This document shows positions 35,779 to 56,720 of a stretch of 64,000 nt of DNA, piece after piece. The stretch's first letter is position 1. Every line of letters starts with the position of its first letter. The DNA comes from Pelagibacteraceae bacterium AG-404-N13 (lineage in GTDB: Bacteria > Pseudomonadota > Alphaproteobacteria > Pelagibacterales > Pelagibacteraceae), in assembly GCA_003216255.1 (NCBI GenBank), contig QCJD01000006.1, forward strand, positions 1-64,000, given 5' to 3'. The position numbers were made by a program, and so were the translations under genes. The notes beneath the pieces were generated by a model, which saw only the letters and a list, made by a program, of their open reading frames with translations, made no database searches and was not told the DNA's origin.

Positions 35779-36407
35779 TATTTATTTACTTCGTATAAAC
35801 CAAGCCAAGCATTAACATCTTTGCTTGCAATATAATTTGATTTGAAAAATTCTAATTCTTTCCATTTATTTTCTTTATTTAACTGTTCTATTTTTTTGTC
35901 AAATCCATACTCTTCATGAATCCCTTCATTTATTGTAAAACAAATAAGTCCTTTATTTTTAGTAATCCTAATAAATTCATCTAATGCTGGGGGTTTGACA
36001 TGTCCAAAAGTAAAGGTTCCAACACACATTAATGCATCAAATGAATTATCTTTTTCACTAATTTTATTATTTAAATCAACTTTATCTAGTTTTTGGTATA
36101 AGCCTTCTGGAACTAAATCCAATAATTTTTGGGAAAGATCTGCTCCATAAAAATTTGAAAATCCATATTTTTTTAATTCAACTCCTACCAATCCGGTTCC
36201 GCATCCTGCATCATAAATTTTAATATCTTTATTTTTTTGATATTTTACAAAAACCTCTGAAGTTTCTTTTGGACCAGTATAATTCCAGTCAACCATATCT
36301 TGATCATACTTATTATCTTCACCCCATTCGTCATAATACTTCATGACTTCGTCGGTCTTCTTTAATTTATATATTGGTACTTTATTTCCTACGTCCTTTT
36401 GTGCCAT
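35778..36407 (-). CDS. Class I SAM-dependent methyltransferase
   Basis: The 209-residue protein has motif I YDAGCGTGLVGVELKKYG, GADLSQKLLD for the acidic SAM loop, and the ALMCVGTFTFGHV post-core segment. It resembles Williams-Beuren-type methyltransferases. The start and stop both overlap neighbours by one base, so it is firmly embedded in the operon. The acceptor is unknown. Confidence 0.85.
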   Translation of the reverse strand: MAQKDVGNKVPIYKLKKTDEVMKYYDEWGEDNKYDQDMVDWNYTGPKETSEVFVKYQKNKDIKIYDAGCGTGLVGVELKKYGFSNFYGADLSQKLLDLVPEGLYQKLDKVDLNNKISEKDNSFDALMCVGTFTFGHVKPPALDEFIRITKNKGLICFTINEGIHEEYGFDKKIEQLNKENKWKELEFFKSNYIASKDVNAWLGLYEVNK

Positions 36408-38812
36408 TAGCTTCTCATCTTTTGCCCAGAAGGATCATAAAGCGGTTCTGTAATTATTGAACAGTTAAAAAAGTCGCCATTTATTTCAACTTGAATACCT
36501 TTTTCAGATTTTAATTCATTCTGATCTAAATAAGAAAAAGCAATACTTTTGTTTACAAAGTGAGCAAAACCTCCTGAAGTTATATATCCAATACTTTTGT
36601 CACCTTTTAATACCGCTTCATTATAAGTCACATCAATATCGTTTGTTTCCACTATCAATGGAACCAATTTATTTTTACTTTCATCTTTTTTGGTACTATC
36701 TTTTCCAATAAAATCTTTATTCCAGTTTATAAAAGCATCTAATCCAGTTTCTTTTGCAGTAAAATCAGGACGATAATCTAATGTCCAAGCACCCCAATTT
36801 TTTTCTAATCTCATTGACATTAAAGCTCTTCCACCAAAAGGTTTGATATTAAATTCTTTTCCTGCTTTTGTTAATTCTTCATATAGTTTTAATTGAAAAT
36901 GAGGAGCTACATAAATTTCGTATCCAAGCTCTCCTGTAAAAGATATTCTATTTACTATAGCAGGAACTCCCGCAACAAACATTTTTCTAGAGTCTCTAAA
37001 TTTAAAACTATCGTTAGAGACGTTTTCTCTAACAATTTTTTGGAGTAAATCTCTTGATTTAGGACCCGCTATACTAAGTCCATGAAATTCATCAGATCTA
37101 TTTTTGTATTTTAAATTATATTTTTCTAAATGACTTTCAAACCACCTTCTATGCATTTCCTGTGCTGCTCCAGATCCAAAAATCATGAATTCATTTTCAT
37201 CTAAACATGCAACAGTTAAATCACCGTAGAGTTTTCCTCTATATGTAAGCATTGGTGTTAAAGAAATTCTTCCAGGTTTTGGAATTTTCCCTGCCATTAT
37301 ATAATCTAAAAACTTTCTTGCGTCTGGACCTTTGAACTCATGTTTTGAAAAGTTAGCCACTTCTGTTACACCTACATTTTCTCTTACATTTATTACTTCT
37401 TTTGAAACATAATTATGAGATCTTGATCTTTTAATTGTTGGTTCTTCGTAAGCATCTTCTTTATTATTAGCGAACCACAAAACATTTTCTAAACCAAAGC
37501 TATCTCCCATCACAGCTCCTTGTTCAACAAATCGGTCATATAAAGCTGTTGTTTTTTGTTTTCGTCCTTTTGGTAAAGTCTCGTTTGGAAAAGTCATAAT
37601 AAATCGTCTTTCGTAATTTTCTGAAGATTTAATAGTCCCATATTGTGGTGACGCATAGTCTCCAAATCTTGCAACATCCATTGCCCAAACATCAATTGAT
37701 GGTTCTCCATCGATAATCCATTCAGCTATACATTTACCAACTCCACCTCCTTGACAAAATCCAGCCATAACACCTACTGCTACCCAATAATTTTTCATCC
37801 CCGGTACAGGTCCTATTAAAGGACTACCATCTGGACCAAATGTAAATGGACCATTAACAATATTTTTAATTCCTGCTTTTTCTAAAGCAGGCATTCTCTC
37901 AAATCCTATAGCTAATCTATCTTGGATGTTATCAAGTTTAGGTTCTAAAAGTTCATGTCCAAAATTCATTGGAGTCCCTTCTACTTTCCACGGAGTAGAC
38001 TTTTGCTCATATGTGCCAAGCAACATTCCTTTACCTTCTTGTCTAAAATAAATGTTACCTTCAAAATCTGTTCCAATTGGAATTCTTTGATCTCCTAATG
38101 CTTCAATTTCTGGAATAGGCTCTGTAATTAAATAATGGTGTTCCATTGGTTGAACAGGTAAATTTAATCCAGCTAAATTACCAACTTCTCTTGCCCATAG
38201 TCCTCCAGCATTAATTACAATCTCTGCATTAATATTTCCTTTATCTGTTACAACATTCCATGAACCATCTTCTTTTTGTTTAGTGTCTTTAACAACTGTA
38301 TGAGTATAATATTTTCCTCCATGAACTTTTGCTGCTTTTGCAAAAGCATAAGTAACTCCTGATGGGTCAACTTCTCCATCAATTGGGTCCCATAATGCTA
38401 ACAAATATCTAGATGGATCAATTAATGGATTTTTCTTTTTTACTTCTTCAAGAGAAATAAATTCTTGATCTAGACCCATATATCTTGCTTTTGATCTTTC
38501 TCTTTTTAAATATTCAGCCCAAACATCATTTGATGCAAGATAAAATCCACCACTCGGTTTAAATCCACAAGAATGACCTGACTCTTTTTCTATTTCTTTA
38601 TAAAGACCAATTGTATAGGCCATCATTCTTGAAATATTAGGATCAGATGATATTACATGTACATTTCCAGCAGCATGCCAAGATGATCCTGAGGTTAATT
38701 CATTTCTTTCTAGTAAAATACAATCTTTAAATCCAAATTTGGATAAATGATATAGAATTGAACATCCTACTACACCACCACCTATGATAACTACTTTTGC
38801 ATGACTTTGCAT
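36407..38812 (-). CDS. Dimethylglycine dehydrogenase-like flavoprotein with GcvT domain (paralogue 3)
   Basis: The 801-residue protein has GGGVVG at 11-16, SSWHAAG with the FAD-linked His46, and a C-terminal GcvT domain (FTGELGYEIYVAP, RALMSMRLEKNWGAW). It follows bhmT by 2 bases. Because BhmT makes dimethylglycine from betaine, this paralogue is the best candidate for true dimethylglycine dehydrogenase, passing one carbon to tetrahydrofolate and electrons to the ETF encoded downstream. Specificity is inferred from position. Confidence 0.9.
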   Translation of the reverse strand: MQSHAKVVIIGGGVVGCSILYHLSKFGFKDCILLERNELTSGSSWHAAGNVHVISSDPNISRMMAYTIGLYKEIEKESGHSCGFKPSGGFYLASNDVWAEYLKRERSKARYMGLDQEFISLEEVKKKNPLIDPSRYLLALWDPIDGEVDPSGVTYAFAKAAKVHGGKYYTHTVVKDTKQKEDGSWNVVTDKGNINAEIVINAGGLWAREVGNLAGLNLPVQPMEHHYLITEPIPEIEALGDQRIPIGTDFEGNIYFRQEGKGMLLGTYEQKSTPWKVEGTPMNFGHELLEPKLDNIQDRLAIGFERMPALEKAGIKNIVNGPFTFGPDGSPLIGPVPGMKNYWVAVGVMAGFCQGGGVGKCIAEWIIDGEPSIDVWAMDVARFGDYASPQYGTIKSSENYERRFIMTFPNETLPKGRKQKTTALYDRFVEQGAVMGDSFGLENVLWFANNKEDAYEEPTIKRSRSHNYVSKEVINVRENVGVTEVANFSKHEFKGPDARKFLDYIMAGKIPKPGRISLTPMLTYRGKLYGDLTVACLDENEFMIFGSGAAQEMHRRWFESHLEKYNLKYKNRSDEFHGLSIAGPKSRDLLQKIVRENVSNDSFKFRDSRKMFVAGVPAIVNRISFTGELGYEIYVAPHFQLKLYEELTKAGKEFNIKPFGGRALMSMRLEKNWGAWTLDYRPDFTAKETGLDAFINWNKDFIGKDSTKKDESKNKLVPLIVETNDIDVTYNEAVLKGDKSIGYITSGGFAHFVNKSIAFSYLDQNELKSEKGIQVEINGDFFNCSIITEPLYDPSGQKMRS

Positions 38813-40155: not shown

Positions 40156-41175
40156 ATGAAAATTAAAAATATAATACTTTCTGCGATTATTGCTTTAGGT
40201 TTAACTTCATTTAGTGGAGTAGCTAATGCAAAATGTGGAAAGCTTGTTATAGCTGAACAAAACTGGGCATCAGCAGAGCTTATGGCTAACGTCGATAAAA
40301 TGATCCTAGAATTAGGTTATGGCTGTGATGTAGAGCTTGTGCCAGGTGCAACAATGCCTACTTTTACATCAATGAACGACAAAGGTACTCCTGACATGAA
40401 CCCAGAACAATGGGCAAATGCTGTTTACACTCTTATGTTAAAAGCAGTTGATGAAGGTAGAATGATACAAGGTAATAAAGCACCAATTACTGGACTTGGA
40501 GAAGGTTGGTGGATTACACCAGGTACTGTCGAAAAACATCCAGAAATTAAAGGTATGACAGCTCTAGAGATATTAGAACATCCAGAGTGGTTCCCAAGTA
40601 AAGAAGATCCTTCAAAAGGAGCTTTTGTTGGTTGCCCTGCAGGATGGGGATGTCAATTAGCAAATGCTAATCTTTTTAAAGCTTTTGATATGGAGAAAAA
40701 AGGTTGGGTTTTAATTGATCCAGGTTCTGCTGCAGGTTTAGATGGAACTATTTCAAAAGCATCTGACTCGGGAGATCCATGGTTAGGGTATTATTGGAAC
40801 CCTACTTCAATGGTTGGTAAATACGGATTGATTCCAGTTGACTTTGGAGTGCCTTTTGCGGGAAGAGATAATTGGGATAACTGTATAATGAAACCTGCTG
40901 GAGAATGTGCAGATCCTAAGCAAACTGCTTGGACTAAATCAGAAGTTAATTCTTTGATTACAAGTAGTTTTGCAAAAAAAGGTGGAAACGATGCAGTTAC
41001 GTATGTTGAAAAACGTACTTATCCTGGTGATGTAATGAACGGAATGCTAGTGTATATGGCTGATAACCAAGCTAAAGGTTCAGATGCAGCTATTGAGTTT
41101 TTAAAACAACATGAAGATCTTTGGTCTACATGGGTAACACCAGCAGCAGCTAAAAAAATTAAAGCTGGTCTTTAA
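40156..41175 (+). CDS. proX: Glycine betaine/proline-type ABC transporter substrate-binding protein
   Basis: The 339-residue protein has a signal peptide ending in GVANAKC and an OpuAC domain. Aromatic residues expected to form a quaternary-amine cage are present (NWASAEL, GEGWWITPG, YYWNPTSM). Four or more cysteines in the mature part may form disulfides. In SAR11 this type binds glycine betaine, DMSP or TMAO-like osmolytes; exact ligand choice cannot be read here. It is divergent from bhmT and followed by a hairpin then the permease gene. Confidence 0.9.
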   Translation: MKIKNIILSAIIALGLTSFSGVANAKCGKLVIAEQNWASAELMANVDKMILELGYGCDVELVPGATMPTFTSMNDKGTPDMNPEQWANAVYTLMLKAVDEGRMIQGNKAPITGLGEGWWITPGTVEKHPEIKGMTALEILEHPEWFPSKEDPSKGAFVGCPAGWGCQLANANLFKAFDMEKKGWVLIDPGSAAGLDGTISKASDSGDPWLGYYWNPTSMVGKYGLIPVDFGVPFAGRDNWDNCIMKPAGECADPKQTAWTKSEVNSLITSSFAKKGGNDAVTYVEKRTYPGDVMNGMLVYMADNQAKGSDAAIEFLKQHEDLWSTWVTPAAAKKIKAGL

Positions 41176-41189
41176 AATATAGTATATAT

Positions 41190-41217
41190 AACGAGCCTAT
41201 TATAATATAGGCTCGTT
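41190..41217 (+). terminator. Intercistronic hairpin between proX and proW
   Basis: A perfect 11-base-pair stem, AACGAGCCTAT (41190-41200) with ATAGGCTCGTT (41207-41217), encloses a 6-base loop. It follows the proX stop by 14 bases and precedes the permease gene by 17. No clear U-run follows, so it is probably a partial terminator or an mRNA-stabilising structure that keeps binding protein in excess over permease. Confidence 0.75.
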
Positions 41218-41234
41218 AACATGTAAGATTATAG

Positions 41235-42119
41235 ATGGAATTTTTTACTAAATTTCCAGTAATGGAAAGATCAGCTCTTGCTGAATTAAGAAAAGGTATT
41301 GATTTAGCTTTTAGAAAGTTTTCAAAAGCTTATGGCGACAATATCGAAGCTTTTTTTGATCCACTATTCTTTTTTTTAGTAAAATTAGAAAAATTATTAA
41401 TCAATTCACCTTGGCCTATAATAATTATTATAATTTGCGGCTTAGCATGGATTGGTTCGAGAAATTGGAAACTGGTTGTTGGAACAGCTGTTGCATTTTT
41501 CTTCATTGGTTATTTTGGTATGTGGAAAGATTGTATGGCAACATTAGCGATTATAACTGTTTGTGTAATAATATGCATGGTGGTCGGTATACCTGTGGGA
41601 GTATTAATGGCTCGTTCAGATAGAGCTGAAAAAGCAATTTTGCCTATTTTAGATATGATGCAAACAATTCCAAGCTTTGTTTATTTAATACCAATCCTAA
41701 TGTTGCTTGGAATTGGTAAAGTTCCAGGATTAATTGCTATTTGTATATACGCAGTACCACCAATAATAAGATTGACAAATTTAGGTATTAGAGAAGTAGA
41801 CAAAGAAACAATAGAAGCTTGTGAAGCTTTTGGGGCTACAAAATTACAAAAATTAAAGACTGTTCAAATTCCATTAGCATTACCAACAGTTTTTGCAGGT
41901 GTTAACCAAACTATTATGATGGCTTTAGCAATGGTCGTTATCGCGTCAATGATAGGTGTTAAAGGTTTAGGAGTGCCTATTTTAAGAGCTGTTATGAATC
42001 AATATTTAGCTTTAGGTTTGTTTAATGGATTAGCTATCGTTGCTATTGCAATTATATTTGACAGAGTTGCCCAAGAGTATGGTCGTAGAATACAGAGACA
42101 CAGGGGAATAAAAAAATAG
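41235..42119 (+). CDS. proW: Glycine betaine/proline-type ABC transporter permease
   Basis: The 294-residue inner-membrane protein has an N-terminal extension, then about six helices and the EAA loop EACEAFGATKLQKLKTVQIP (about residue 196). The QTIPSFVYLIPILMLLGIGKVPG segment is typical of ProW/OpuAB. No proV/opuAA ATPase gene follows; the next genes are MetF-like and DmdA-like. The ATPase must be encoded elsewhere. Confidence 0.92.
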   Translation: MEFFTKFPVMERSALAELRKGIDLAFRKFSKAYGDNIEAFFDPLFFFLVKLEKLLINSPWPIIIIIICGLAWIGSRNWKLVVGTAVAFFFIGYFGMWKDCMATLAIITVCVIICMVVGIPVGVLMARSDRAEKAILPILDMMQTIPSFVYLIPILMLLGIGKVPGLIAICIYAVPPIIRLTNLGIREVDKETIEACEAFGATKLQKLKTVQIPLALPTVFAGVNQTIMMALAMVVIASMIGVKGLGVPILRAVMNQYLALGLFNGLAIVAIAIIFDRVAQEYGRRIQRHRGIKK

Positions 42120-42184: not shown

Positions 42185-42913
42185 ATGAACTTTTCTTTAG
42201 AAATTGGACCTAAAACTGATCTTGATACTTTACCTGCATTAAAAGATGTTTATGTAACTATGCTACCTGGAGGCGATTACAAGGAAACCGCCGCACAATC
42301 TGCAAATTTAGTTAAAAAGGGCTTTAATCCAATACCTCATTTTCCTGCAAGATCCATCGAAAATGATGAGCAGCTAAAAGATTTTGTTAATAGATGTAAA
42401 AACGAAGGAGTAAAACAAGCTCTTGTAATAGGCGGTAGCAGGGATCCTATCGGAAAGTTTGACAGCTCTATTCAACTTTTAGAGACAGGTTATTTTGAAA
42501 ATATGAAGATAGGAATCGCTGGACATCCAGAGGGGAGTCCTGATATATCCGATTCAAAATTAGAAGAAGCTATGAAAGATAAAAAGCCTTATGCGGATTA
42601 CATTGTGACTCAATGGTTATTAGATCCGCAGTTAATTGTAGACTTTATTTCTAAACAAACAGTACCAGTTCATGTTGGAATTACTGGACCACTAAAAATA
42701 ACAAGCTTAATTAAATTTGCTAATATTGTTGGTGCTAAAAATTCCATAAATTTTCTTAAATCTAATTTTAGTAAGGCGTTAGATTTACTGAAACCTAAAG
42801 ACCCAAATGACTTAATTGGGAAAGTTAAATCGCATACTGATTTCTTCCACATTTATACATTCGGCGGCTTGAAGGAAACTAACAAGTGGTTGATGGAGAA
42901 CAAATATGTCTAA
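42185..42913 (+). CDS. Short methylenetetrahydrofolate reductase-like protein
   Basis: The 242-residue protein resembles MetF: SLEIGPKT at the N-terminus, YVTMLPGG, IPHFPARS, LVIGGSRDP and the GIAGHPEGSP loop. It is about 50 residues shorter than usual MetF and so may be a subfamily paired with folate-dependent demethylases. It would interconvert 5-methyl- and 5,10-methylene-tetrahydrofolate. It overlaps the DmdA-like gene by 8 bases, implying coupling with an enzyme that produces methyl-tetrahydrofolate. Confidence 0.83.
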   Translation: MNFSLEIGPKTDLDTLPALKDVYVTMLPGGDYKETAAQSANLVKKGFNPIPHFPARSIENDEQLKDFVNRCKNEGVKQALVIGGSRDPIGKFDSSIQLLETGYFENMKIGIAGHPEGSPDISDSKLEEAMKDKKPYADYIVTQWLLDPQLIVDFISKQTVPVHVGITGPLKITSLIKFANIVGAKNSINFLKSNFSKALDLLKPKDPNDLIGKVKSHTDFFHIYTFGGLKETNKWLMENKYV

Positions 42914-44264
42914 TGAATTTGACTATACTAAACTAAAACATGTAACTTCAGTAGATCAATCAGATCGTGAAGTTCCATATAACTTAAGACAAAGTGGACC
43001 AACAAAAGTTGAAATGTTAATTTCAACAAGAGTAAGAAAATCTCCTTATTGGCATTTATCAATGCAAGCAGGTTGTTGGAGAGCAACAGTTTACAATCGT
43101 ATTTACCATCCAAGAGGATATGTAAAACCAGAAGATGGTGGTGCAATGGTAGAATATGATGCAATTGTAAATCATGTAACGATGTGGAATGTTGCAGTAG
43201 AAAGACAAATAAGAGTTAAAGGTCCTGATGCAGAAAAATTTACAGATTATGTAATTACAAGAGATGCAACTAAAATTTCACCTATGAGAGCGAGATATGT
43301 AATTTTATGTAACGCATATGGTGGTGTTTTAAATGACCCAATTCTATTAAGAATTTCAAAAGATGAATTTTGGTTTTCTTTATCGGACTCTGATATTGGA
43401 ATGTATTTACAAGGAGTAAATGCTGATGGAAGATTTGATTGTACAATTGAAGAAATAGACGCTTGTCCTGTACAAATTCAAGGACCTAAGTCAAAAGCTT
43501 TAATGAAAGATCTTTGTGGAGACCAAGTTGATTTTGATAACATGCCCTTTTATGGTCTTGCTGAAGTAAAAGTTGGTGGAAGAAGTTGTGTTATTTCTCA
43601 ATCAGGTTTTTCAGGAGAAGCAGGTTATGAAATATATTTAAGAAATGCTACCTTATACGCAGAAGACATGTGGAATGCAGTTCTTGAAGCTGGAAAGAAA
43701 CATAATTTAATGGTCATAGCTCCTGCTCACCATAGAAGAATTCAAGCTGGAATTTTATCTTGGGGACAAGATATGGATCAACAACATAATCCTTTTCAAT
43801 GTAATCTTGGTTATCAAGTATCATTATCTGGTAAAGGAGAGTGGAATAAAAAAGCTGATTACGTAGGTAAAGCTGCATTAGAAAAAATGAAAGCTGAGCT
43901 TAAAGATGGGAAAAAACCTTATAAACTTCAATTAGTAGGTTTTGAGTTAGGTGGAAAACCTATTGAAGAATATGCTCCTGATTTTTGGTTAGTTTCACCT
44001 GAAAATGGTGGAGATCCAGTAGGTTTTATAACGTCTCCTTGGTATCATCCTGAGAAAAAACAAAATATTGCAATGGGATATGTACCTTTTGATGGAACAT
44101 TAAATCCAAATGGGTTTCCAAAAGGTAAAGTTGGAACAAAATACAAAGTACATCTTCCAGAAAAATACTCAGATACACCTGGTACACCAGTTGATGCTGT
44201 AGTAGTAGAGATTCCATTCAAAGAATCTTTCAATGCAAATACTAGGGAAGTTGTTAAAGGATAA
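42906..44264 (+). CDS. DmdA-like GcvT-family tetrahydrofolate-dependent demethylase
   Basis: The 452-residue protein follows the DmdA pattern more closely than glycine-cleavage T protein: MWNVAVERQIRVKG, VITRDATK, LNDPILLRIS, SLSDSD, VQIQGPKSKALM, SGFSGEAGYEIYLR and SWGQDMDQQHNPFQCNL. It is about 80 residues longer than typical DmdA, with the extra length near the C-terminus. DmdA moves a methyl from DMSP to tetrahydrofolate. Here the substrate may be DMSP, betaine or another methylated osmolyte brought in by ProX. The MetF-like neighbour would recycle the methyl-folate. Confidence 0.78.
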   Translation: MSNEFDYTKLKHVTSVDQSDREVPYNLRQSGPTKVEMLISTRVRKSPYWHLSMQAGCWRATVYNRIYHPRGYVKPEDGGAMVEYDAIVNHVTMWNVAVERQIRVKGPDAEKFTDYVITRDATKISPMRARYVILCNAYGGVLNDPILLRISKDEFWFSLSDSDIGMYLQGVNADGRFDCTIEEIDACPVQIQGPKSKALMKDLCGDQVDFDNMPFYGLAEVKVGGRSCVISQSGFSGEAGYEIYLRNATLYAEDMWNAVLEAGKKHNLMVIAPAHHRRIQAGILSWGQDMDQQHNPFQCNLGYQVSLSGKGEWNKKADYVGKAALEKMKAELKDGKKPYKLQLVGFELGGKPIEEYAPDFWLVSPENGGDPVGFITSPWYHPEKKQNIAMGYVPFDGTLNPNGFPKGKVGTKYKVHLPEKYSDTPGTPVDAVVVEIPFKESFNANTREVVKG

Positions 44265-44393: not shown

Positions 44394-44939
44394 ATGTTTG
44401 CTCAGTTTTTAGATATAATTTTTAAGTCTATTAAATTAGATAAAGATTTATATAAAAATCCAAAATACTTTAGTGAAGCAGCAATTTATTTTGCTGGGTT
44501 AATAATGATTTTAGATGGTGTAGCTGGTGCAATTGCAGCAAATACTATGGTTAAAGCTTCAATTGGTGTGTCGGGATTAACTGCTATCTTAACATGGTTT
44601 GTTTGGGCAGTTTTTATTTATGTTATTGGAGTAAAAATATTTCCCGATAAAGAAAATAAAATACCATTTAAAAAAGTTTTAATTGCAGTTGGTTATGCCC
44701 ACTCTCCTGGACTTTTAAGATTTTTTGCTGTAACTCCTGATTTGGTTCTCTTAATTGTATTTCTTACTCAATTTTGGATTTTTGCATCATTAATAATCTC
44801 TGTTAAACACACATTGAATATTCAATCTAGTTTTAAAGCCTCTGGTATTGTATTTTTATCTTTTCTAATTATTGCTTTTTTGTCTATTGCTTTCATAATG
44901 TCGAGAATGAGCGGACTACCAGTAAGCAATATTAGTTAA
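44394..44939 (+). CDS. Yip1-domain-like integral membrane protein
   Basis: The 181-residue protein has about five hydrophobic helices. The layout, with an amphipathic N-terminus (IFKSIKLDKDLYKN), a helix pair, then ILTWFVWAVFIYVIG and GYAHSPGLLRFFAVTP, matches bacterial Yip1-domain proteins, in which the AhSPGll-type segment is conserved. The function is unknown. Its 3' end overlaps the convergent small CxxC gene by 4 bases. Confidence 0.75.
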   Translation: MFAQFLDIIFKSIKLDKDLYKNPKYFSEAAIYFAGLIMILDGVAGAIAANTMVKASIGVSGLTAILTWFVWAVFIYVIGVKIFPDKENKIPFKKVLIAVGYAHSPGLLRFFAVTPDLVLLIVFLTQFWIFASLIISVKHTLNIQSSFKASGIVFLSFLIIAFLSIAFIMSRMSGLPVSNIS

Positions 44940-45103
44940 ATTGGAAATATAGTCTTTGAAACTCTGCAAGATTTACAAATTTTAAATCCTGTGAGTATCA
45001 AGTTTTGTTGAACACTTTCGTGTTCTTTTTTACACTCTTCACAAATATTGTTAAACTCGTCTAAATCTTCTATTTTTAAATCTTTAGCTTCATTATCAAT
45101 CAT
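44936..45103 (-). CDS. 55-residue double-CxxC zinc-ribbon-like protein
   Basis: ATG at 45101-45103 opens a 55-codon frame ending at TAA 44936-44938. Two C-x-x-C pairs, Cys21/Cys24 in ICEECKK and Cys43/Cys46 in ICKSCRV, are spaced like a small zinc ribbon. The start overlaps the last 8 bases of the DUF3726 gene (ATGATTGA), so translation is probably coupled. The preserved cysteine pairs and tight overlap support a real gene. It could be an accessory of the upstream unknown system. Confidence 0.65.
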   Translation of the reverse strand: MIDNEAKDLKIEDLDEFNNICEECKKEHESVQQNLILTGFKICKSCRVSKTIFPI

Positions 45104-45704
45104 TATCAGTTAATCCAGCACCTGCTGCTTTTTGCTTTGACTCCTCAGTTTCTTCAACAAATGTGTTTTCGGAAATTTTATACAATTCTGACCATTCATT
45201 TTCTGAAAATGAATTTTTATTTTCTAAAAATTGTAAATTTATTTTTTCAGATTTTTCAACAATATCTCCACTTAGATAATTTGAATAAATTGATTGATTA
45301 AAATTAAATAAAAACTCTTTGTTGTCTATTTTTAAAAAAATTCTTTTTCCTATTATTTCTGATGTTCTGCTTACAAATGGTATAAATAATAAAGGGAAAG
45401 CAAGATTGTTTATTTCTATTTGTTTAAATTCTGAAATTGTTGATGATTGATCAAAAAAATTAACTCCTGAAATTATTGGACAGAAAAATTTTTTTGAAAA
45501 ATTTGCTTTTGCATAAACATTAATGTTTTCAAAGTTTTCATTATTATATATTTTAAAATATTGATTAATGTTTTTGATACCAGGTAAACCAAACATTTCT
45601 AATAGTCTAATATTTTTTCCAACTTCTTCTGCTATTCCCCAAGAAAAACCCACTGATCTCGTGGCTCTTTTGACTGTAGTTTCTATCTCGCTAAAACTAA
45701 TCAT
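45096..45704 (-). CDS. DUF3726 family protein
   Basis: The 202-residue protein begins with SEIETTVKRATRSVGFSWGI and ends with AAGAGLTDND, both hallmarks of DUF3726. The middle is less conserved and mixed alpha/beta. There is no signal peptide or membrane segment, so it is probably cytoplasmic. The function is unknown. Its start is in a one-base overlap with the 553-residue gene, and its end overlaps the CxxC gene, so all are one operon. Confidence 0.82.
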   Translation of the reverse strand: MISFSEIETTVKRATRSVGFSWGIAEEVGKNIRLLEMFGLPGIKNINQYFKIYNNENFENINVYAKANFSKKFFCPIISGVNFFDQSSTISEFKQIEINNLAFPLLFIPFVSRTSEIIGKRIFLKIDNKEFLFNFNQSIYSNYLSGDIVEKSEKINLQFLENKNSFSENEWSELYKISENTFVEETEESKQKAAGAGLTDND

Positions 45705-47365
45705 TAATTTAAAGAATTGTATATCCAGTGATTATCAAACGATTTTAAATCTATTGGAAGTGGTGCGCCCTGAAACATACAAATTCTTAACCATTTATCA
45801 GACCGAGGGTCAAATTTAATTGCCCCAAAAAATGATAGTTTTAATCTCAACATATCAATAGGCATTAATTTAGAACCAATTGTATTGTCCTGAATTTCTG
45901 CATATGGAAATTTTTCTGTAATAAAAGCTCTTCTTACTACATGTCTTAAATGATTATTATCTTTTAAAAATTTTCCTACTTTCAAACTATTTTTCAGCGT
46001 AAAAATTGTTTCATAAAGTTTTTTTATATCTCTGGCTATTGCTAGTGGTTGCTCTAGATTTGATCCTTCTATTTCATATCTATTTGCCATTCTGGGTTCT
46101 TCTTTATTTTTTGAAATGAACCAAAAATTTTGATTGTTTTCTTTTTTTTTAAAATCGATTTTTAAAACTTCAGAGTATTTGTTTTCTAAGATGTTTCTTA
46201 ATTCCTCAATTGTTCTATTTATTGGAATATTAAAATACTGATCTTCATCTGAGCTCATTTTATTAATTAAAGGTTTTGTTATTTCGTCATAGGGCTCCAT
46301 CAACATTGAAACAATATATTCTATGCACTCATCATTTAGATTTTCTTCAGCCCAAATATAAATATTATTAAATGGAAATGCTTTTTTGAAACTAAACTCT
46401 TCATTTAAAAATTTAATAAATTTTTCTAAGTCCTCATTTAATTGTTTTATTTTTTTATTTTGGAAATCGCTGTCAGTATTCCAGCTTGTCACATTCTTTA
46501 AAGATTTCACTAAGCAATTTTTAAAAATACTTATTTCTTCTTTTGATGCTTCCTTAATTTCTCTTATTTTTTTTAATGCTGTCTCTCTTGCTAATATCCA
46601 ATTATTTAAAAGCATTGGATGATTAACAATAAATGGGGCCATGCCTAAACCTGTAGAATTTCCTATACCAAGATTTCTACAAATATTTTGATCTAATTCG
46701 ACTGCAGTGTTTGGGTTCTTATATCTCGCTATATGATTTACTTGATCAAATGTAAATTGCCTAACCAAGTATACAAGCATCATTTCCAATCTAAATGGTC
46801 CAAAAATTTCTTCTCTATTTTTTATTCTAAAACGATCAGCTAATCCAAATTTACCAGATCCATAAACTGCTGTTGTCCTATACAAATATCCAACTTTTGA
46901 TAAAAGTTCAGTATCAGGTTGATTTCCTTTAGATAAACTTTCTACTACGTGATTAAACATTCTGATCGATTTATTTGCTCTAGAAAGAGTCAATTCTTTA
47001 TATGATAATCTTCCTACTTCTTGTTTTGGAACATTATGAGCTAATCTTTCTAAGTCTTCTTTAGTGGGAACTCCATCATGTAATGCGAATGCAGCATCCC
47101 ATTTAGTTGCTATAACTCTGTCTGATCTTTCTTCATCACTTATTTCATTTGCAAAACAAACTAAAGAATAAGTTCGTTTATTTTTTGAAAATGAATAAAC
47201 TGCTCTACCGTATCCTTTTTCATTCAATTCAAAAAGATCTCTTTTATATTCCCAGTCTTTAAATTCATTTAAGAAAGATCTTAAAAAAGATAATTTCGAT
47301 TGATGAAATGATCCAAGTTTTGACAATTTCATTAAATATTTTGGGTCTCTTAGTTCTATTTTCAC
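45704..47365 (-). CDS. Large soluble protein of unknown function in the DUF3726 operon
   Basis: The 553-residue protein has no signal peptide or membrane helix and is mostly predicted helical. Segments that look conserved by composition include ATKWDAAFALHDGVPTKED, LYRTTAVYGSGKFGLADRF, and GLGMAPFIVNHPMLLNNW. No known domain is recognised. The start is GTG at 47363-47365, sharing one base with the stop of the peptidase-like gene (TAGTG), and the stop overlaps the DUF3726 start. Tight coupling to both suggests a joint role, possibly as a complex. Identity remains open. Confidence 0.65.
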   Translation of the reverse strand: MKIELRDPKYLMKLSKLGSFHQSKLSFLRSFLNEFKDWEYKRDLFELNEKGYGRAVYSFSKNKRTYSLVCFANEISDEERSDRVIATKWDAAFALHDGVPTKEDLERLAHNVPKQEVGRLSYKELTLSRANKSIRMFNHVVESLSKGNQPDTELLSKVGYLYRTTAVYGSGKFGLADRFRIKNREEIFGPFRLEMMLVYLVRQFTFDQVNHIARYKNPNTAVELDQNICRNLGIGNSTGLGMAPFIVNHPMLLNNWILARETALKKIREIKEASKEEISIFKNCLVKSLKNVTSWNTDSDFQNKKIKQLNEDLEKFIKFLNEEFSFKKAFPFNNIYIWAEENLNDECIEYIVSMLMEPYDEITKPLINKMSSDEDQYFNIPINRTIEELRNILENKYSEVLKIDFKKKENNQNFWFISKNKEEPRMANRYEIEGSNLEQPLAIARDIKKLYETIFTLKNSLKVGKFLKDNNHLRHVVRRAFITEKFPYAEIQDNTIGSKLMPIDMLRLKLSFFGAIKFDPRSDKWLRICMFQGAPLPIDLKSFDNHWIYNSLN

Positions 47366-48333
47366 TAATTAATTCCTTTATAAAAATTAAACCAATTATT
47401 ACCAAGAATATCATTTACTTCTTCAAGGTTAAATCCAATTTTTTTTAATCCGGTCTCTAATGAATTAAATCCTCTTGCATCAATGAACCAATCAGGCTGT
47501 TTTGGAAAGCCTGGTTTGTCTTTGCTTCCCTCGCCATAATTTTTCGCTCTAGTCCAAGTTCCATTTCTCATCCACTCCACAACACTATCTGGTTGATTTA
47601 GACATAAATCAGACCCAATTCCAATATTTTTTACACCAATTAAATCAGCTGTCTTTGCTACCATTTCACAAAAACTTTCTAGTTTACAATTTGAACTATC
47701 CTTTAAATGATGGGCATACAAAGAAAGGCCAAGCATTCCTCCGCTTTCAGATAAATTTTTTAAAAGTGTGTCTGATTTATTTCTTTTAGCTTTATACCAA
47801 AATGATGGATTTGCATGAGTAATAGCTATTGGTTTTTGACTCAACTCTATTGCTTCTAATGTGCTTTTTTCTGCAGAATGTGACATATCGATTACAATGC
47901 CTACTCTATTCATTTCTTTAATTACTTCTTTACCAAAATTAGTAACACCACTATCAACATTCTCATAACATCCGGTGGCTAATAATGATTGATTATTATA
48001 TGTGAGTTGCATAAAACGACATCCTAACTCATGCACTTTTTCTACAAGATTAATATCATCTTCAATCGGAGAACAGTTTTGAAAGCCAAAAAAAATTGCC
48101 GTTTTATTTTCTAACTTTGCTTTTTCAATATCTCTAATATCTTTTCCTAAAAAAATTAAATCTGAATTGTTTTTAAATAATTCATTCCATTCTGAAATTC
48201 TTGTTAAAAATTCGTCATAATCTTCATGATAAACAACAGTTACATGAACTGCATCTAATCCAGCTTCTCGGTTAATTTCGAAAATTTCTCTAGACCAATT
48301 GCAGTATTGAAGATTGTCTATTCGGTAATTCAT
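47365..48333 (-). CDS. Divergent membrane-dipeptidase (M19) family protein
   Basis: The 322-residue protein has the M19 amidohydrolase barrel: MQLTYNNQSLLATGCYE, VIDMSHSAE and AITHANPS with the two later zinc histidines, and NIGIGSDL. The N-terminal H-x-D metal pair of renal-type dipeptidases is missing; the region reads DNLQYCNWSRE. The GFQNCSP loop also lacks the usual bridging Glu. It may bind metal differently or have changed chemistry. It heads the unknown operon and is divergent from purE across a 159-base spacer. Confidence 0.78.
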   Translation of the reverse strand: MNYRIDNLQYCNWSREIFEINREAGLDAVHVTVVYHEDYDEFLTRISEWNELFKNNSDLIFLGKDIRDIEKAKLENKTAIFFGFQNCSPIEDDINLVEKVHELGCRFMQLTYNNQSLLATGCYENVDSGVTNFGKEVIKEMNRVGIVIDMSHSAEKSTLEAIELSQKPIAITHANPSFWYKAKRNKSDTLLKNLSESGGMLGLSLYAHHLKDSSNCKLESFCEMVAKTADLIGVKNIGIGSDLCLNQPDSVVEWMRNGTWTRAKNYGEGSKDKPGFPKQPDWFIDARGFNSLETGLKKIGFNLEEVNDILGNNWFNFYKGIN

Positions 48334-51170: not shown

Positions 51171-51611
51171 GTGAAGAAAGATAAAACAAGACCATTTGTG
51201 CTTTATGTAGCTGAAGAAATTTATCTAAAAGTATCTGAAATAAAAAAAAAAAATCCAGAAATTACAAATATCGAAGCTATAGAGAGGTTTATTGGTACAG
51301 ATTTATTTAAAGAAATTAGTAGTGGTAAATTTCATGATAAATGGTTTGAAGAATTAAAAAAAAATAATTTTATCGATAAAAATTCTGGAAAAAAAATTCC
51401 ATCAGAAACCATTAGACTTTTATTAGTTCAAAAAGATACGATGATGCGTCAATTGATAGGTTACCCTAGCTTGTATTATACAAAAAGTTTTTATCCTCTT
51501 GAGCTTTCTCAAAGAGCTTTTAATCACTTGTGGAGAATTTGTGAAAATTATGAGCTATGGTGTAAAGAAATTGGAAATAAAAATAAAATTTCTCTTAATT
51601 TGATTAATTAA
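51171..51611 (+). CDS. Basic soluble protein, unknown function
   Basis: The 146-residue protein is rich in Lys and predicted helical. The GTG at 51171 begins MKKDKTRPFVLYV and lies 8 bases after the acetyltransferase gene. A conserved-looking stretch, MMRQLIGYPSLYYTKSFYP, occurs in the second half. No domain is recognised. It converges with soxG, overlapping by 4 bases. Confidence 0.6.
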   Translation: MKKDKTRPFVLYVAEEIYLKVSEIKKKNPEITNIEAIERFIGTDLFKEISSGKFHDKWFEELKKNNFIDKNSGKKIPSETIRLLLVQKDTMMRQLIGYPSLYYTKSFYPLELSQRAFNHLWRICENYELWCKEIGNKNKISLNLIN

Positions 51612-52195
51612 AATGCTTTAAAACCAAATTCTAAAGATGCATCTGTTATTGAATGATATAAAGATTCTCCAAAACTTCTAAGAGCAAATAATCTTATTTT
51701 ATTTGGGTTATCATCAAGCATATCTGCGGTAAATGCTATACCATTATATGTTGAGTTTACTGAATTATTTTTTTGTAAAATATTAAAATTAAATGGACAT
51801 CCTTTTTTTAAAACTTCTTTAGCTTCAGTGCCTTCTAGTTCAATTATAGCTCGCGAGTGTGATAAATCGGTTACTGCAAAATCTGTTTCTTTAAAAACTT
51901 CAGAAATATTTTTAAGTAAATCTTTTTTTGTTGATACTAAAAGCCAATTTTTTGGACCATTCCACAATATTCTTGTATTAGAGTTATGGGCAACACTTAA
52001 AGGTTCATTCGTTAATTTTAAACTATCAATATCAATATTTTCAAATTGAATGGTTGAATTTTTATACTGAACTATTTGTACAATAAGTAAATTTTTAATT
52101 TCTGTAACTTTTAATAAATTCTCTTCATTTTTATTTTCATAATTTCCAAAAAGACCAGTTTTATGAACATAATTTAAAGCTGAAATTGATGTCAT
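51608..52195 (-). CDS. soxG: Sarcosine oxidase gamma subunit
   Basis: The 195-residue protein resembles SoxG: ILWNGPKNWLLVS, FAVTDLSHSRAIIELEGTEAKEVL, and CPFNFN, a GcvT-like small fold. It overlaps soxA by 4 bases and ends the soxBDAG operon. The subunit stabilises the heterotetramer. Confidence 0.88.
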   Translation of the reverse strand: MTSISALNYVHKTGLFGNYENKNEENLLKVTEIKNLLIVQIVQYKNSTIQFENIDIDSLKLTNEPLSVAHNSNTRILWNGPKNWLLVSTKKDLLKNISEVFKETDFAVTDLSHSRAIIELEGTEAKEVLKKGCPFNFNILQKNNSVNSTYNGIAFTADMLDDNPNKIRLFALRSFGESLYHSITDASLEFGFKAF

Positions 52196-55188
52196 GATCT
52201 TACTCTTTCTCCTTTAGGGTCAACATAATGTGATGATACTATTTCAACAGGAATTGTTTTATTTTTTAAAGGCGACATTGCAAAAAGTTTTTGACCAATC
52301 ATATTTTTTCCATCTTTAATTATAGCAAGCGAAAATGGGTTGTCATACTCAACACTCCAACATGAAGCTGATACATGACCTAATTTTGGATTTGGAAGTT
52401 TTGCTTTTGCATCTTTAACTATATATGATCCTTCTGGGATGCTTGTTTTTTTATCTAATGGAACAACTCCAACTACTTTTTGTCTGTCGGGTTCTACATA
52501 TGCTTTTTTGCTTAAAGATCTTTTTCCAATAAAATCTTTTTTCTTACTAACTAGACCTTCTAGTGAGTTGTCATAAGGGATTGTTCGTCCATCTAACTCT
52601 GATCCTGCAACATGACCCATTTCTATTCTTAATGTTGATAATGCTTCTGTTCCATAAGGTTGGATATTAAACTCTTTTCCAATTTCTATAATTTTTTCCC
52701 ACATATAGTTACCATTATCAGATTCAACATTTACTTCGTATGCAAGTTCACCAGAAAATGAAATTCTGAAAATTTTCGCATTAACACCAAATAAATTTCC
52801 CTCCATATATCCCATGAAAGGTAAGCCTTCATTTGAAACATCTAAATCTGGAAATAATTTTTGCAATACATCTCTAGATTTTGGTCCAGCTATAGCTGCA
52901 CCTGCCCACTGTTCTGTGCTTGAAACCACATTTACATTCAACTCAGGCCATACCAATTGCAAATAATATTCTAAATGAGATAAAACGTTAGGAGCTTGAG
53001 CAGTAGTCGTAGTCATATGATAATGGTTTTCTGAAATTCTTGTTGTTGTCCCATCATCCATTACAATTCCATCTTCTCTTAGCATTACACCATATCTTGC
53101 TTTGCCAACTGGTAGTTTAAGCCAAGCATTTGTATAAACTCTATTTAAAAATTCAGCTGAGTCTGGTCCTTTAATATCAATTTTACCTAGAGTAGTTACA
53201 TCGCATACTCCAACATTTTGTCTTACATTTTTTGCTTCTCTTTTAGAAGCTTCAAATAAATTTTCATTACCCTGCTTATAGTATCTTGGACGTAACCAAA
53301 CTCCTGCATCAACAAATACTGCATTATTTTTTTCGTGCCAATAATGCATTGGAGATTTTCTTGTTGGTTTAGAATGTTTTCCAACTTCTCTGCCAACGAT
53401 TGCTCCTATAGTAACTGGTGTATAAGGTGGTCTAAAAGTTGTATGACCTACTTGAGGGACCACTTTATTTTCAACTTCTGACACCAATTGCAATCCATTT
53501 AGATTACTTGTTTTGCCTTGGTCTGTAGCCATACCTAACGTAGTATATCTTTTAACATGTTCTATTGATCTATAACCTTCTCTTAGAGCAAGTTGGATGT
53601 CAGAAACAGCAACATCATTTTGGAAATCTAAAAATCTTTTATAATTTTTACCTTCAGGTAATGGCACACACCAAAATTTATCATGTTTAGATGATTTTTT
53701 TTCTACAACAGTTGGAATTGAAATTTGATTTTCTTTATTAGTTATTTGTTTTGATAATTCAGTTCCTTTTTCAAAAGAAGTTTTCAAAGTTTCTTCTAAG
53801 GTAAAAATTCCATTTGCAGAACCTAAAGTTGTTTCTTTTTGTTTAGAATGGCTTGGAACAAAAGCATCTATTTCCTCTTTAAATTTAGTTTTATTTCCTG
53901 ATTGTGAAGCAAGATGAATTGTTGGTGTCCAAAATCCTGATACGCAGATACAATCACATTTTATATTTTCATTATTGCTAAGAACCTTTTTATCATCAGA
54001 AATTTTCGCAATATCAGCAGATTTGACTTTTTTATATCCTTTGGCTGCCACTACAACATAAGAAAATTTAATATTTATATTTAATTCTTTTGCTTCTTTT
54101 ATAATCTCTGAATTAGGATCTTTTCTTGTGTCTAATACAATTGGATCTACTCCAATTTTTTTAAATTCTATAGCTGTTTCATATCCGCTATCATTATTTG
54201 TAAATATAATTGGTTTTTTACCAACCAAAACTCCATAAATTTTTAAATATTCTTTTGCAGCAGAAGAAAGCATAACTCCAGGTGCATCATTATTTCCAAA
54301 TACCAAAGGTCTTTCAATTGATCCTGAGGAAATAACAACTTCTTCTGCACGAATATACCAAAGTCTTTGTTTAGGAGTGTATTTATCTGTTTTTGGTAAG
54401 TGGTCACTCACTCTTTCTGACATAACAAGCATGTTATGATCATAATAACCAAAAACTTGAGATCTATTTTTTACAATTACATTTGGCATTGACTTTAGTT
54501 CGGAAATTATTTGTTCTGCCCATTCTTGTCCGCTCTGGTTTCCTATAGTTACTTCGCTAGTTAAAAGACTTCCTCCGTATCTTGATTTATCCTCTGCTAG
54601 AATTACTTTTGCTCCATTTTTTGCAGCTGCATAAGCACTTGCTAAACCAGAAGGTCCAGTTCCTGCAATTAAAAGATCACAATATTCGTATTTGTGCTCG
54701 TATCTCTCTTTATCGTGTTTTATCGATGCTGATCCAAAACCTGCGGCTTTTCTTATTATTGGCTCATAAATTTTATACCAAAAGCTTTTTGGCCACATGA
54801 ATGTTTTATAATAAAAGCCTGCAGGAAAAAACTTGTTTAAAAAATTATTGATTGCACCAATATCAAAATTAACATTTGGCCAACAATTTACACTTTTTGC
54901 ATCTAGTCCCTCAAATAACTCTTGTTCTGTAGCTCTTACATTAGGGTCGACTTCATTATTTCTATTCATTTGAACTATAGCATATGGCTCATCAACTCCT
55001 GCTCCAAAAAAACCTCTTGGTCTGTGATATTTAAAACTTCTACCAACTAAATGAACACCATTTGCAAGTAATGCCGAAGCCAAAGTATCACCTTCGTAAC
55101 CAAAATATTTTTTTCCATTAAATGTAAATGAAATTTTTTTATTTCTATTTATTAATCCACCTTGATCTAACCTAAAATTCTCTGGCAT
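52192..55188 (-). CDS. soxA: Sarcosine oxidase alpha subunit
   Basis: The 998-residue protein shows SoxA architecture: an N-terminal ferredoxin-like domain (FTFNGKKYFGYEGDTLASAL, SFKYHRPRGFFG), an NAD-binding domain (LLIAGTGPSGLASAYAAAKNG), and a C-terminal GcvT-like folate domain (FSGELAYEVNVE, ALSTLRIEMGHVAGSELDGR). In the family it binds NAD and folate, accepting the methylene from sarcosine. It lies 2 bases after soxD. Confidence 0.95.
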   Translation of the reverse strand: MPENFRLDQGGLINRNKKISFTFNGKKYFGYEGDTLASALLANGVHLVGRSFKYHRPRGFFGAGVDEPYAIVQMNRNNEVDPNVRATEQELFEGLDAKSVNCWPNVNFDIGAINNFLNKFFPAGFYYKTFMWPKSFWYKIYEPIIRKAAGFGSASIKHDKERYEHKYEYCDLLIAGTGPSGLASAYAAAKNGAKVILAEDKSRYGGSLLTSEVTIGNQSGQEWAEQIISELKSMPNVIVKNRSQVFGYYDHNMLVMSERVSDHLPKTDKYTPKQRLWYIRAEEVVISSGSIERPLVFGNNDAPGVMLSSAAKEYLKIYGVLVGKKPIIFTNNDSGYETAIEFKKIGVDPIVLDTRKDPNSEIIKEAKELNINIKFSYVVVAAKGYKKVKSADIAKISDDKKVLSNNENIKCDCICVSGFWTPTIHLASQSGNKTKFKEEIDAFVPSHSKQKETTLGSANGIFTLEETLKTSFEKGTELSKQITNKENQISIPTVVEKKSSKHDKFWCVPLPEGKNYKRFLDFQNDVAVSDIQLALREGYRSIEHVKRYTTLGMATDQGKTSNLNGLQLVSEVENKVVPQVGHTTFRPPYTPVTIGAIVGREVGKHSKPTRKSPMHYWHEKNNAVFVDAGVWLRPRYYKQGNENLFEASKREAKNVRQNVGVCDVTTLGKIDIKGPDSAEFLNRVYTNAWLKLPVGKARYGVMLREDGIVMDDGTTTRISENHYHMTTTTAQAPNVLSHLEYYLQLVWPELNVNVVSSTEQWAGAAIAGPKSRDVLQKLFPDLDVSNEGLPFMGYMEGNLFGVNAKIFRISFSGELAYEVNVESDNGNYMWEKIIEIGKEFNIQPYGTEALSTLRIEMGHVAGSELDGRTIPYDNSLEGLVSKKKDFIGKRSLSKKAYVEPDRQKVVGVVPLDKKTSIPEGSYIVKDAKAKLPNPKLGHVSASCWSVEYDNPFSLAIIKDGKNMIGQKLFAMSPLKNKTIPVEIVSSHYVDPKGERVRS

Positions 55189-55190
55189 TT

Positions 55191-55457
55191 TTATGTATTT
55201 TCACTTGCTTTATATGTTGTAAATATTTCATGAGTTAAAGTATCTCTTTCAACTTTAATCCATTGTCTACATCCAGAAATATGCTGCCATAATTCTAAAT
55301 GTTTTCCTCTTGGGCTTTTTCTCAAATAAACAAAGTTATCCCAATCTTGATCAGAAATTTCCTTATTTAACTCTGGTCTTTTAACTGTTGCGTCTCCACC
55401 ATATGAAAATTCGGTTTGCGGTCTTAATCCACAATGGGGACATAGTATATACAACAT
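55191..55457 (-). CDS. soxD: Sarcosine oxidase delta subunit
   Basis: The 88-residue protein has all zinc ligands of SoxD: Cys6 and Cys9 in LCPHCG, His59 and Cys63 in WQHISGC. RTEFSYGGDA-like TEFSYGGDA and LRKSPRGKHLELW are characteristic. It fits directly between soxB and soxA with no gaps. Confidence 0.95.
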   Translation of the reverse strand: MLYILCPHCGLRPQTEFSYGGDATVKRPELNKEISDQDWDNFVYLRKSPRGKHLELWQHISGCRQWIKVERDTLTHEIFTTYKASENT

Positions 55458-56720
55458 TTAAGAAATCCAAGTTTTTGTTCCAAGACCTTTTTCATCAATT
55501 AAATGTCCAGTACTAAATCTATTTAAACTATAACCTTCATTTAATTTATGAGGTTTATCTTGAGCTATTGTGTGTGCAAAAGTCCAGCCAGATGCAGGGG
55601 TTGCTTTAAATCCTCCATAACACCATCCACAATTTAAATATAAACCTTCAATATGAGTCTTATCTATAATAGGTGATCCATCCATGGACATATCCATAAT
55701 TCCTCCCCATGTTCTAAGCATTTTTAATTTACTTAGAAATGGAAACATTGCGATACCTTCAGTCAAAACATGTTGCAACGTTGGTAAATTTCCTCTTTGA
55801 GCATAGCTGTTATATCCATCAAGATCTCCACCCATAACCATTTCTCCTTTATCAGATTGGCTACAATAAAAATGTCCCGCACCAAATGTAACTACATTAT
55901 CTAATATTGGTTTAATTGGTTCTGATACGCATGCTTGTAAAAGGTGAGTTTCAATTGGTAATGTCATATTTAACTTTTCGGCTAAAACATTTGTGCTTCC
56001 AGCAACACATAAACCAATTTTTTTCGCTTTGATTTCTCCCTTGGAAGTTCTTATTCCTAAAATTTTTCCATTAGAAACATCAAATCCTGTAACTTCACAA
56101 TTTTGTATAATATCAACACCCATGGAATCTGCTTGACGTGCATAACCCCAAGCAACAGCATCATGCCTAGCCGTACCAGCACTAGGTTGCATCAATCCAC
56201 CAAATATTGGAAATCTCACATTCTCAGAAAAATCTGCCATAGGAATAATTTTTTTAACTTCTTCTCTATTTAATAGAACTGCATCTATTCCATTTAAACG
56301 CATAGAATTTCCTCTTCTTGAATATGCATTCATTTGCGCATCAGAATGTGCAAGATTAATAATTCCTCTTGGAGAAAACATTACATTGAAGTTTAAATCC
56401 AAACTCATATTTCTCCATAAATCCATTCCAAACTCACTGAATAGACCATTTTCATCATGCATATAATTTGATCTAATAATTGTAGTATTTCTTCCGACAT
56501 TACCTCCACCTATCCATCCTTTTTCTATGATGGCAACTTTTGTAATGTTGTGTTCCTTCGCTAAATAATATGCGGTGGCTAAACCATGGCCTCCACCACC
56601 AATAATTATAACATCATACTCTGCTTTAGGAGTTGGGTCTTTCCAGGCAACTTCCCAATCTTTATGGCCTTTGAAGGCATTTTTTATTAGACTAAATACT
56701 GAATATTTTTGCATAGCCAT
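55458..56720 (-). CDS. soxB: Sarcosine oxidase beta subunit
   Basis: The 420-residue DAO-fold flavoprotein has GGGGHGLATAYYLAKEH at the dinucleotide loop near residue 41. SAGTARHDAVAWGYARQAD contains His186, which aligns with the His that binds FMN covalently in heterotetrameric sarcosine oxidase. LYLNCGWCYGGFKATPASG is the C-terminal signature. It oxidises sarcosine to glycine with H2O2 and methylene-tetrahydrofolate. It heads the operon and is divergent from fhs. Confidence 0.95.
   Translation of the reverse strand: MAMQKYSVFSLIKNAFKGHKDWEVAWKDPTPKAEYDVIIIGGGGHGLATAYYLAKEHNITKVAIIEKGWIGGGNVGRNTTIIRSNYMHDENGLFSEFGMDLWRNMSLDLNFNVMFSPRGIINLAHSDAQMNAYSRRGNSMRLNGIDAVLLNREEVKKIIPMADFSENVRFPIFGGLMQPSAGTARHDAVAWGYARQADSMGVDIIQNCEVTGFDVSNGKILGIRTSKGEIKAKKIGLCVAGSTNVLAEKLNMTLPIETHLLQACVSEPIKPILDNVVTFGAGHFYCSQSDKGEMVMGGDLDGYNSYAQRGNLPTLQHVLTEGIAMFPFLSKLKMLRTWGGIMDMSMDGSPIIDKTHIEGLYLNCGWCYGGFKATPASGWTFAHTIAQDKPHKLNEGYSLNRFSTGHLIDEKGLGTKTWIS

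Follow-up and report, generated by a model that had tools for sequence, protein, structure and literature searches.

A conserved M19-X-DUF3726 gene module of SAR11 bacteria with a putative role in the catabolism of N-methylated carboxylates

The window analysed here, 64,000 nucleotides of contig QCJD01000006.1 from the SAR11 organism Pelagibacteraceae bacterium AG-404-N13 (assembly GCA_003216255.1; genome of 1.17 Mb), carries on its minus strand an operon of four overlapping genes. In order, these encode an M19-like amidohydrolase (positions 47365–48333, 322 residues), a 553-residue protein that we call X (45704–47365, with a GTG start that overlaps the M19 stop codon), a DUF3726 protein (45096–45704, 202 residues) and a small, double-CxxC zinc-ribbon-like protein (44936–45103, 55 residues). 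The successive junctions are TAGTG (M19/X), TAATG (X/DUF3726) and an 8-base overlap (DUF3726/CxxC). The purE gene lies on the opposite strand and begins 160 bp from the operon, which therefore has its own start region. A preliminary description of this DNA had proposed that the four genes form one unit, that the first resembles a membrane dipeptidase without the H-x-D metal pair and the bridging Glu, that the second has no recognised domain, that the third is a domain of unknown function (DUF) and that the fourth encodes a small zinc-ribbon-like protein easily missed by gene callers; the open reading frames, the junctions and the comparisons given below bear out these points.

The first three genes form a conserved core. 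X was found in 35 of 118 SAR11 genomes and 57 of 387 sampled Alphaproteobacteria genomes, as well as in 168 plasmid records, including those of Rhodobacterales, Rhizobiales, Vibrio, Caballeronia and one haloarchaeon. Among 80 independently fetched SAR11 loci, M19 adjoins X in all 80 and DUF3726 in 79, and almost every SAR11 member starts DUF3726 within the stop codon of X or shortly past it. In another 67 loci, a few of them from SAR11, M19 (60), DUF3726 (59), an aldehyde dehydrogenase (ALDH; 31) and an Ldh_2-type reductase (Ldh; 28) are encoded near X. The trio thus stays together in SAR11 and in most other loci, from Rhizobiales and Rhodobacterales to Vibrio, and the gene-neighbourhood comparison revealed no independent scattering of the families. 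The CxxC gene, which matches no Pfam family, is a SAR11-specific addition outside this core: it is present in 74 of the 80 SAR11 loci, with CxxC..CxxC kept in 70/70 intact copies, is restricted to SAR11 loci of the window's kind and is missing from loci of other SAR11 genera. The earlier view of four families as one set therefore holds for M19, X and DUF3726.

The M19-like protein matches PF01244 with an E-value of 1e-70 (239 bits against a cut-off of 26). In the alignment, the N-terminal H-x-D metal pair is missing, with DNLQY where the family has DGHxD, and the bridging-Glu position is occupied by Gln (GFQN where the family has GxEG). The protein retains counterparts of four residues of human DPEP1, namely His198, His219, Arg230 and Asp288, and the DMSH, THAN and GSD motifs, which hold the second-site His pair and the catalytic Asp, align with DPEP1 (1itq); we take these residues to have the metal-binding and catalytic roles of their DPEP1 equivalents. 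Across 137 M19 proteins from X loci, HxD occurs in 0/137 and GxQN in 136/137, making the altered metal site more than chance, while the DMSH, THAN and GSD motifs are found in 134–137. The closest PDB entry is the amidohydrolase 2i5g from Pseudomonas aeruginosa (E 2.6e-56; runner-up structure 1e-18), which aligns over nearly its full length, likewise lacks HxD, has GFQN for GxEG and belongs to the same subfamily. Presumably this is PA5396 of the P. aeruginosa dimethylglycine cluster; unlike the operon protein, it has as far as known no linkage to X or DUF3726, and its own function is not established. HxD-less GxQN M19-like proteins were also seen at loci without X (L238 5962–6963, L239 5968–6936 and L241 5965–6954), with flavin oxidoreductases and transporters as neighbours. 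Since the HxD-less group, including 2i5g, also occurs without X, its lack of the first metal site is, judging by these sequences, a trait of the subfamily and no mark of this operon, and the idea that such M19 proteins always travel with DUF3726 had to be given up.

X belongs to no Pfam or NCBIfam family, and a sequence search of the PDB returned chance matches only. Its homologues number over 570. Its AlphaFold2 (AF2) model has a mean predicted local distance difference test score (pLDDT) of 70.8 and a predicted template modelling score (pTM) of 0.76; the most conserved stretches are poorly modelled, with conserved loops below a pLDDT of 50. When this model was compared with the PDB, Foldseek found nothing at E<=0.001, and VIA reached a Z of at most 4.3, although a moderate model of 553 residues may hide a known fold. 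Among 14 diverse members, down to 25% identity, 47 columns are invariant, many of them Arg, Asp, Glu and Trp, a pattern as expected of an enzyme. In Mesorhizobium sp. 131-2-1, X and DUF3726 are one fused protein.

The DUF3726 protein (PF12525, E 7e-22) was modelled by AF2 with a pLDDT of 90.4, and this model has a shortened Ldh_2-type dehydrogenase fold. Against the PDB, all 15 Ldh_2 entries among the matches listed scored Z 8.6–10.9, the next fold reaching 4.1, and Foldseek gave a probability of up to 1.00, though with an E-value of just 3e-3; the fold alignment spans ~160 of 202 residues. An archaeal homologue matches PF02615 with E 4.8e-9, slightly below the cut-off; hhalign, used to compare the DUF3726 and Ldh profiles, gave a weak result (probability 5%). 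It is through its modelled fold and the archaeal homologue that DUF3726 is recognised as a relative of the Ldh_2 enzymes (type-2 malate/lactate dehydrogenase; YiaK, DpkA and sulfolactate dehydrogenase), but it is ~130 residues shorter (202 vs ~335), and the active-site SHG motif, invariant in the operon Ldh, was not seen in the DUF3726 alignments. From its short length and the missing motif, this shortened Ldh_2 relative is most likely an inactive pseudo-enzyme subunit, perhaps a partner of X, as in the fusion, or of the operon Ldh. On a Natrinema plasmid (L037 9965–12621), an archaeal X precedes a DUF3726 homologue of greater length, which still matches Ldh_2, with ALDH and BCCT genes nearby and no M19 detected; this homologue reads as an intermediate in the decay from Ldh_2 to DUF3726.

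Complete operons consist of a divergent LysR gene and the series ALDH-M19-X-DUF3726-Ldh, with a BCCT or ProXWV-type betaine transporter within or after it; no demethylase is encoded inside the conserved operon. The operon ALDH scores highest against 2,5-dioxovalerate and alpha-ketoglutaric semialdehyde dehydrogenase (KGSADH) models, under their cut-offs. The best PDB match of the operon Ldh is 1wtj, the delta1-piperideine-2-carboxylate reductase DpkA (E 2.8e-58; next 6.8e-39). DpkA enzymes make N-methyl amino acids from methylamine and 2-oxo acids. X loci without Ldh often encode a RidA protein, in small numbers; the RidA family hydrolyses imines and enamines. In SAR11, the operon is reduced to M19, X and DUF3726, plus the CxxC gene in the window's kind, and the reductase is encoded elsewhere in the genome by an unlinked dpkA copy that matches 1wtj with E 1.2e-82 (next 1.9e-41). 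In Sinorhizobium, Neorhizobium and Bosea (L039 9944–13390, L038 and L041), we observed a distant X branch with 26–28% identity, in which the gene order is IclR, X, a DUF-like protein, M19 and a polyamine-type transporter of the ATP-binding cassette (ABC) class; this branch may act on another compound.

The second recurrent association of X is with N-methylglutamate dehydrogenase (MgdABCD, or Mgd). In the window, 3.6 kb from the operon and also on the minus strand, the genes at 51608–56720 match sarcosine oxidase models. They comprise a beta subunit (55458–56720) with 63% identity to Aminobacter MgdA, compared with 53–55% for the SAR11 paralogue, an alpha subunit (52192–55188) that clusters with the MgdC of gmaS-mgs-linked Mgd and apart from the second SAR11 paralogue, and a gamma subunit (51608–52195; generic label sarcosine oxidase gamma) that is MgdD-like by its position in the cluster with the tree-placed alpha and beta genes. 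Alpha and beta subunit trees group the window genes, with support of 100/100, with the Mgd encoded beside gmaS and mgsABC in Aminobacter, Rhizobium and one SAR11 genome (G001), the last having the same Mgd type beside gmaS and mgsC. The sarcosine oxidase assignment was accordingly dropped, and by phylogeny the genes are mgdABCD, with a predicted activity on N-methylglutamate. A second, distinct SAR11 paralogue of these sox/mgd-type genes was seen, for example, on contig C16 of genome G000 (locus L232).

This linkage extends beyond the window. In Phaeobacter inhibens DSM 17395, mgdABCD-AraC-LysR-ALDH-M19-BCCT-X-DUF3726 are contiguous, with Ldh in an unannotated gap, and the beta subunit falls in the Mgd clade; in Shinella, the X operon also neighbours mgd. 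The operon genes of P. inhibens include the locus tags PGA1_RS18825–RS18850. Plasmid pPGA1_262 of P. inhibens holds two paralogous operon copies (L032 10982–14321 and L240 8986–14027), one beside the dimethylsulphoniopropionate genes dmdA/dmdD and the other beside mgdABCD, which perhaps have different substrates. Among SAR11 genomes of 90% completeness or more, mgd is present in 14/15 with X and 3/30 without (p 6e-8), and the unlinked dpkA orthologue in 14/15 and 1/30, respectively (p 1e-9). In the wider Alphaproteobacteria, MgdA of at least 60% identity, a cut-off taken from the tree, was found in 45/57 X-positive and ~49/330 X-negative genomes, counts that were read by hand and are not phylogeny-corrected. 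Every near-complete mgd-positive SAR11 genome has X or the N-methylglutamate synthase MgsC: G017 pairs mgd with X in the absence of MgsC, and the three mgd-positive genomes without X (G001, G042 and G088) all have MgsC. This pattern makes it plausible that the X module is a second source of N-methylglutamate. MgdABCD would then be common to the module and to the gmaS-mgsABC-mgdABCD methylamine pathway, the module, unlike that pathway, being an alternative source of the Mgd substrate.

The betaine transporters, the demethylase-free operon, the dehydrogenase suited to a five-carbon semialdehyde, the reductase of N-methyl-imine type and Mgd together suggest that an N-methylated ring carboxylate is broken down without prior demethylation. 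We therefore consider it probable, with some reserve, that these genes are the heart of a module that breaks down a zwitterionic, N-methylated carboxylate and feeds MgdABCD; the likeliest substrate is homarine (N-methylpicolinate). Homarine fits in that loss of one ring carbon would leave a five-carbon N-methyl amino acid, and in that Mgd is reported in homarine catabolism. We infer the following order of steps. The substrate would enter through the betaine transporter, and X, complexed with the Ldh_2-like pseudo-enzyme DUF3726, would activate the N-methyl heterocycle and open it. With its single remaining metal site, the M19-like protein would hydrolyse a C-N bond in the opened intermediate, the ALDH would oxidise a five-carbon 2-oxo (or 2-imino) semialdehyde, and the DpkA-like reductase would convert the N-methyl imine to an N-methyl amino acid. 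Finally, MgdABCD would turn N-methylglutamate, or methylamine re-fixed as such, into glutamate and methylene-tetrahydrofolate. More tentatively, and with doubt prevailing, X may be a new enzyme fold that, with its pseudo-dehydrogenase subunit, opens a cationic N-methylated ring that has not first been demethylated, SAR11 using a streamlined version.

A passage of PMC13390433, citing Ferrer-Gonzalez et al. (2026, Nat Microbiol 11:1531), states that Mgd takes part in a conserved homarine pathway. The homarine catabolic operon and the X operon are alike in their use of Mgd and in their wide occurrence in environmental bacteria. The former is reportedly named homABCDER and said to comprise five enzymes and a regulator, which would agree with the X operon in gene number. 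The SAR11 version differs from the homarine operon in having no ALDH or reductase in the operon and an extra CxxC gene. Our literature searches returned nothing on DUF3726, on homABCDER, on PA5396 with dimethylglycine or describing the operon.

Several observations weigh against this assignment. Homarine as the substrate is deduced from genomic context. Ruegeria pomeroyi removes homarine, and X was not found on its megaplasmid, the replicon that the search covered. The operon ALDH lacks a close orthologue in SAR11, where the best match reaches 36%, and SAR11 genome G093 carries X without mgd or dpkA. The association of X with mgd and dpkA in SAR11 is mostly between genera, and in the window's genus only three near-complete genomes lack X. 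Among the Alphaproteobacteria, 12 of the 57 X-positive genomes lack MgdA of at least 60% identity, and in the Sinorhizobium branch of X (26% identity) the transporters differ and mgd is missing from the neighbourhood.

A pathway of the same kind could act on another substrate, either trigonelline or a cyclic amino acid betaine (stachydrine, hydroxyproline betaine or pipecolate betaine), with the ALDH and imine reductase working on pyrroline or piperideine carboxylate intermediates. A KGSADH-like ALDH and a DpkA-like reductase would suit proline- or hydroxyproline-type routes too, and Rieske oxygenases and demethylases resembling dimethylglycine dehydrogenase (DMGDH) are encoded near some X loci; at one Sulfitobacter locus, a set of genes for an amino acid dehydrogenase of the FAD/2Fe-2S type follows downstream. 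However, the conserved operon itself lacks a demethylase, and its recurrent partner Mgd is specific for N-methylglutamate, so we regard this option as unlikely. Salvage of methylamine or N-methyl peptides, in which the M19-like protein would hydrolyse gamma-glutamylmethylamide or an N-methyl dipeptide with assistance from X and DUF3726, draws on the M19 homology and on the gmaS/mgs/mgd genes of SAR11 genomes; it appears improbable, as the dinuclear metal site is broken in all 137 M19 relatives, G017 combines X and mgd without MgsC, and the operons carry dedicated betaine transporters. That X and DUF3726 are not catalysts and instead mature or assemble Mgd or the Ldh/ALDH enzymes would agree with the lack of a recognised catalytic domain in X, the likeness of DUF3726 to a dead Ldh_2 subunit and the position of both beside mgd, but is very improbable given the 47 residues of X that are invariant over very diverse members, the ~49 X-negative Alphaproteobacteria with Mgd and the ~12 X-positive genomes without it.

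Elsewhere in the window, betaine-type ABC transporter genes on the plus strand (40156–42119; PF04069, E 1.4e-43) encode an OpuAC/ProX-like binding protein (40156–41175) and a ProW-like permease (41235–42119), a candidate uptake system for the module; SAR11 bacteria of another genus have, at several loci, a ProW-like gene immediately upstream of M19-X-DUF3726. Between these genes and the operon, a plus-strand pair (42185–44264) encodes an MTHFR-like protein (242 residues) and a GcvT/DmdA-like protein (452 residues), which resembles a demethylase paired with a one-carbon reductase of its own. The pair adjoins the operon in ~70 of the 80 SAR11 loci; a functional link with X was not accepted, as SAR11 genomes without X commonly have the GcvT-like gene too. 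An FMO-like monooxygenase, several DMGDH-like FAD proteins, a Rieske oxygenase and a methyltransferase are encoded at 5572–6903, 14516–16957, 27916–30348 and 34603–38812, and the window as a whole looks like a methylated-amine metabolic island.

The preliminary description had also read the co-translation as a dedicated pathway with no described role. The conserved trio and the X-DUF3726 fusion support the first part of this reading; the second is doubtful in view of the N-methyl/betaine context, the link to mgdABCD and the 2026 homarine report, and the pathway as a whole is probably not new but part of the one described there. The SAR11 form, split, with no ALDH found and with the CxxC gene added, is a variant of it; what may be new is this layout, the kinship of DUF3726 with Ldh_2 and X as a protein without any known fold. 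X and DUF3726 are without annotation in hundreds of genomes, and the "sarcosine oxidase" labels of SAR11 include N-methylglutamate dehydrogenase, so that current annotations misstate nitrogen and one-carbon metabolism in the most abundant group of ocean bacteria. According to the literature, marine phytoplankton contain homarine and related N-methylated osmolytes in abundance, and bacteria consume them rapidly. If the proposed role is correct, X would be a genetic marker of the use of homarine-type osmolytes by SAR11, and this flux could be read from metagenomes.

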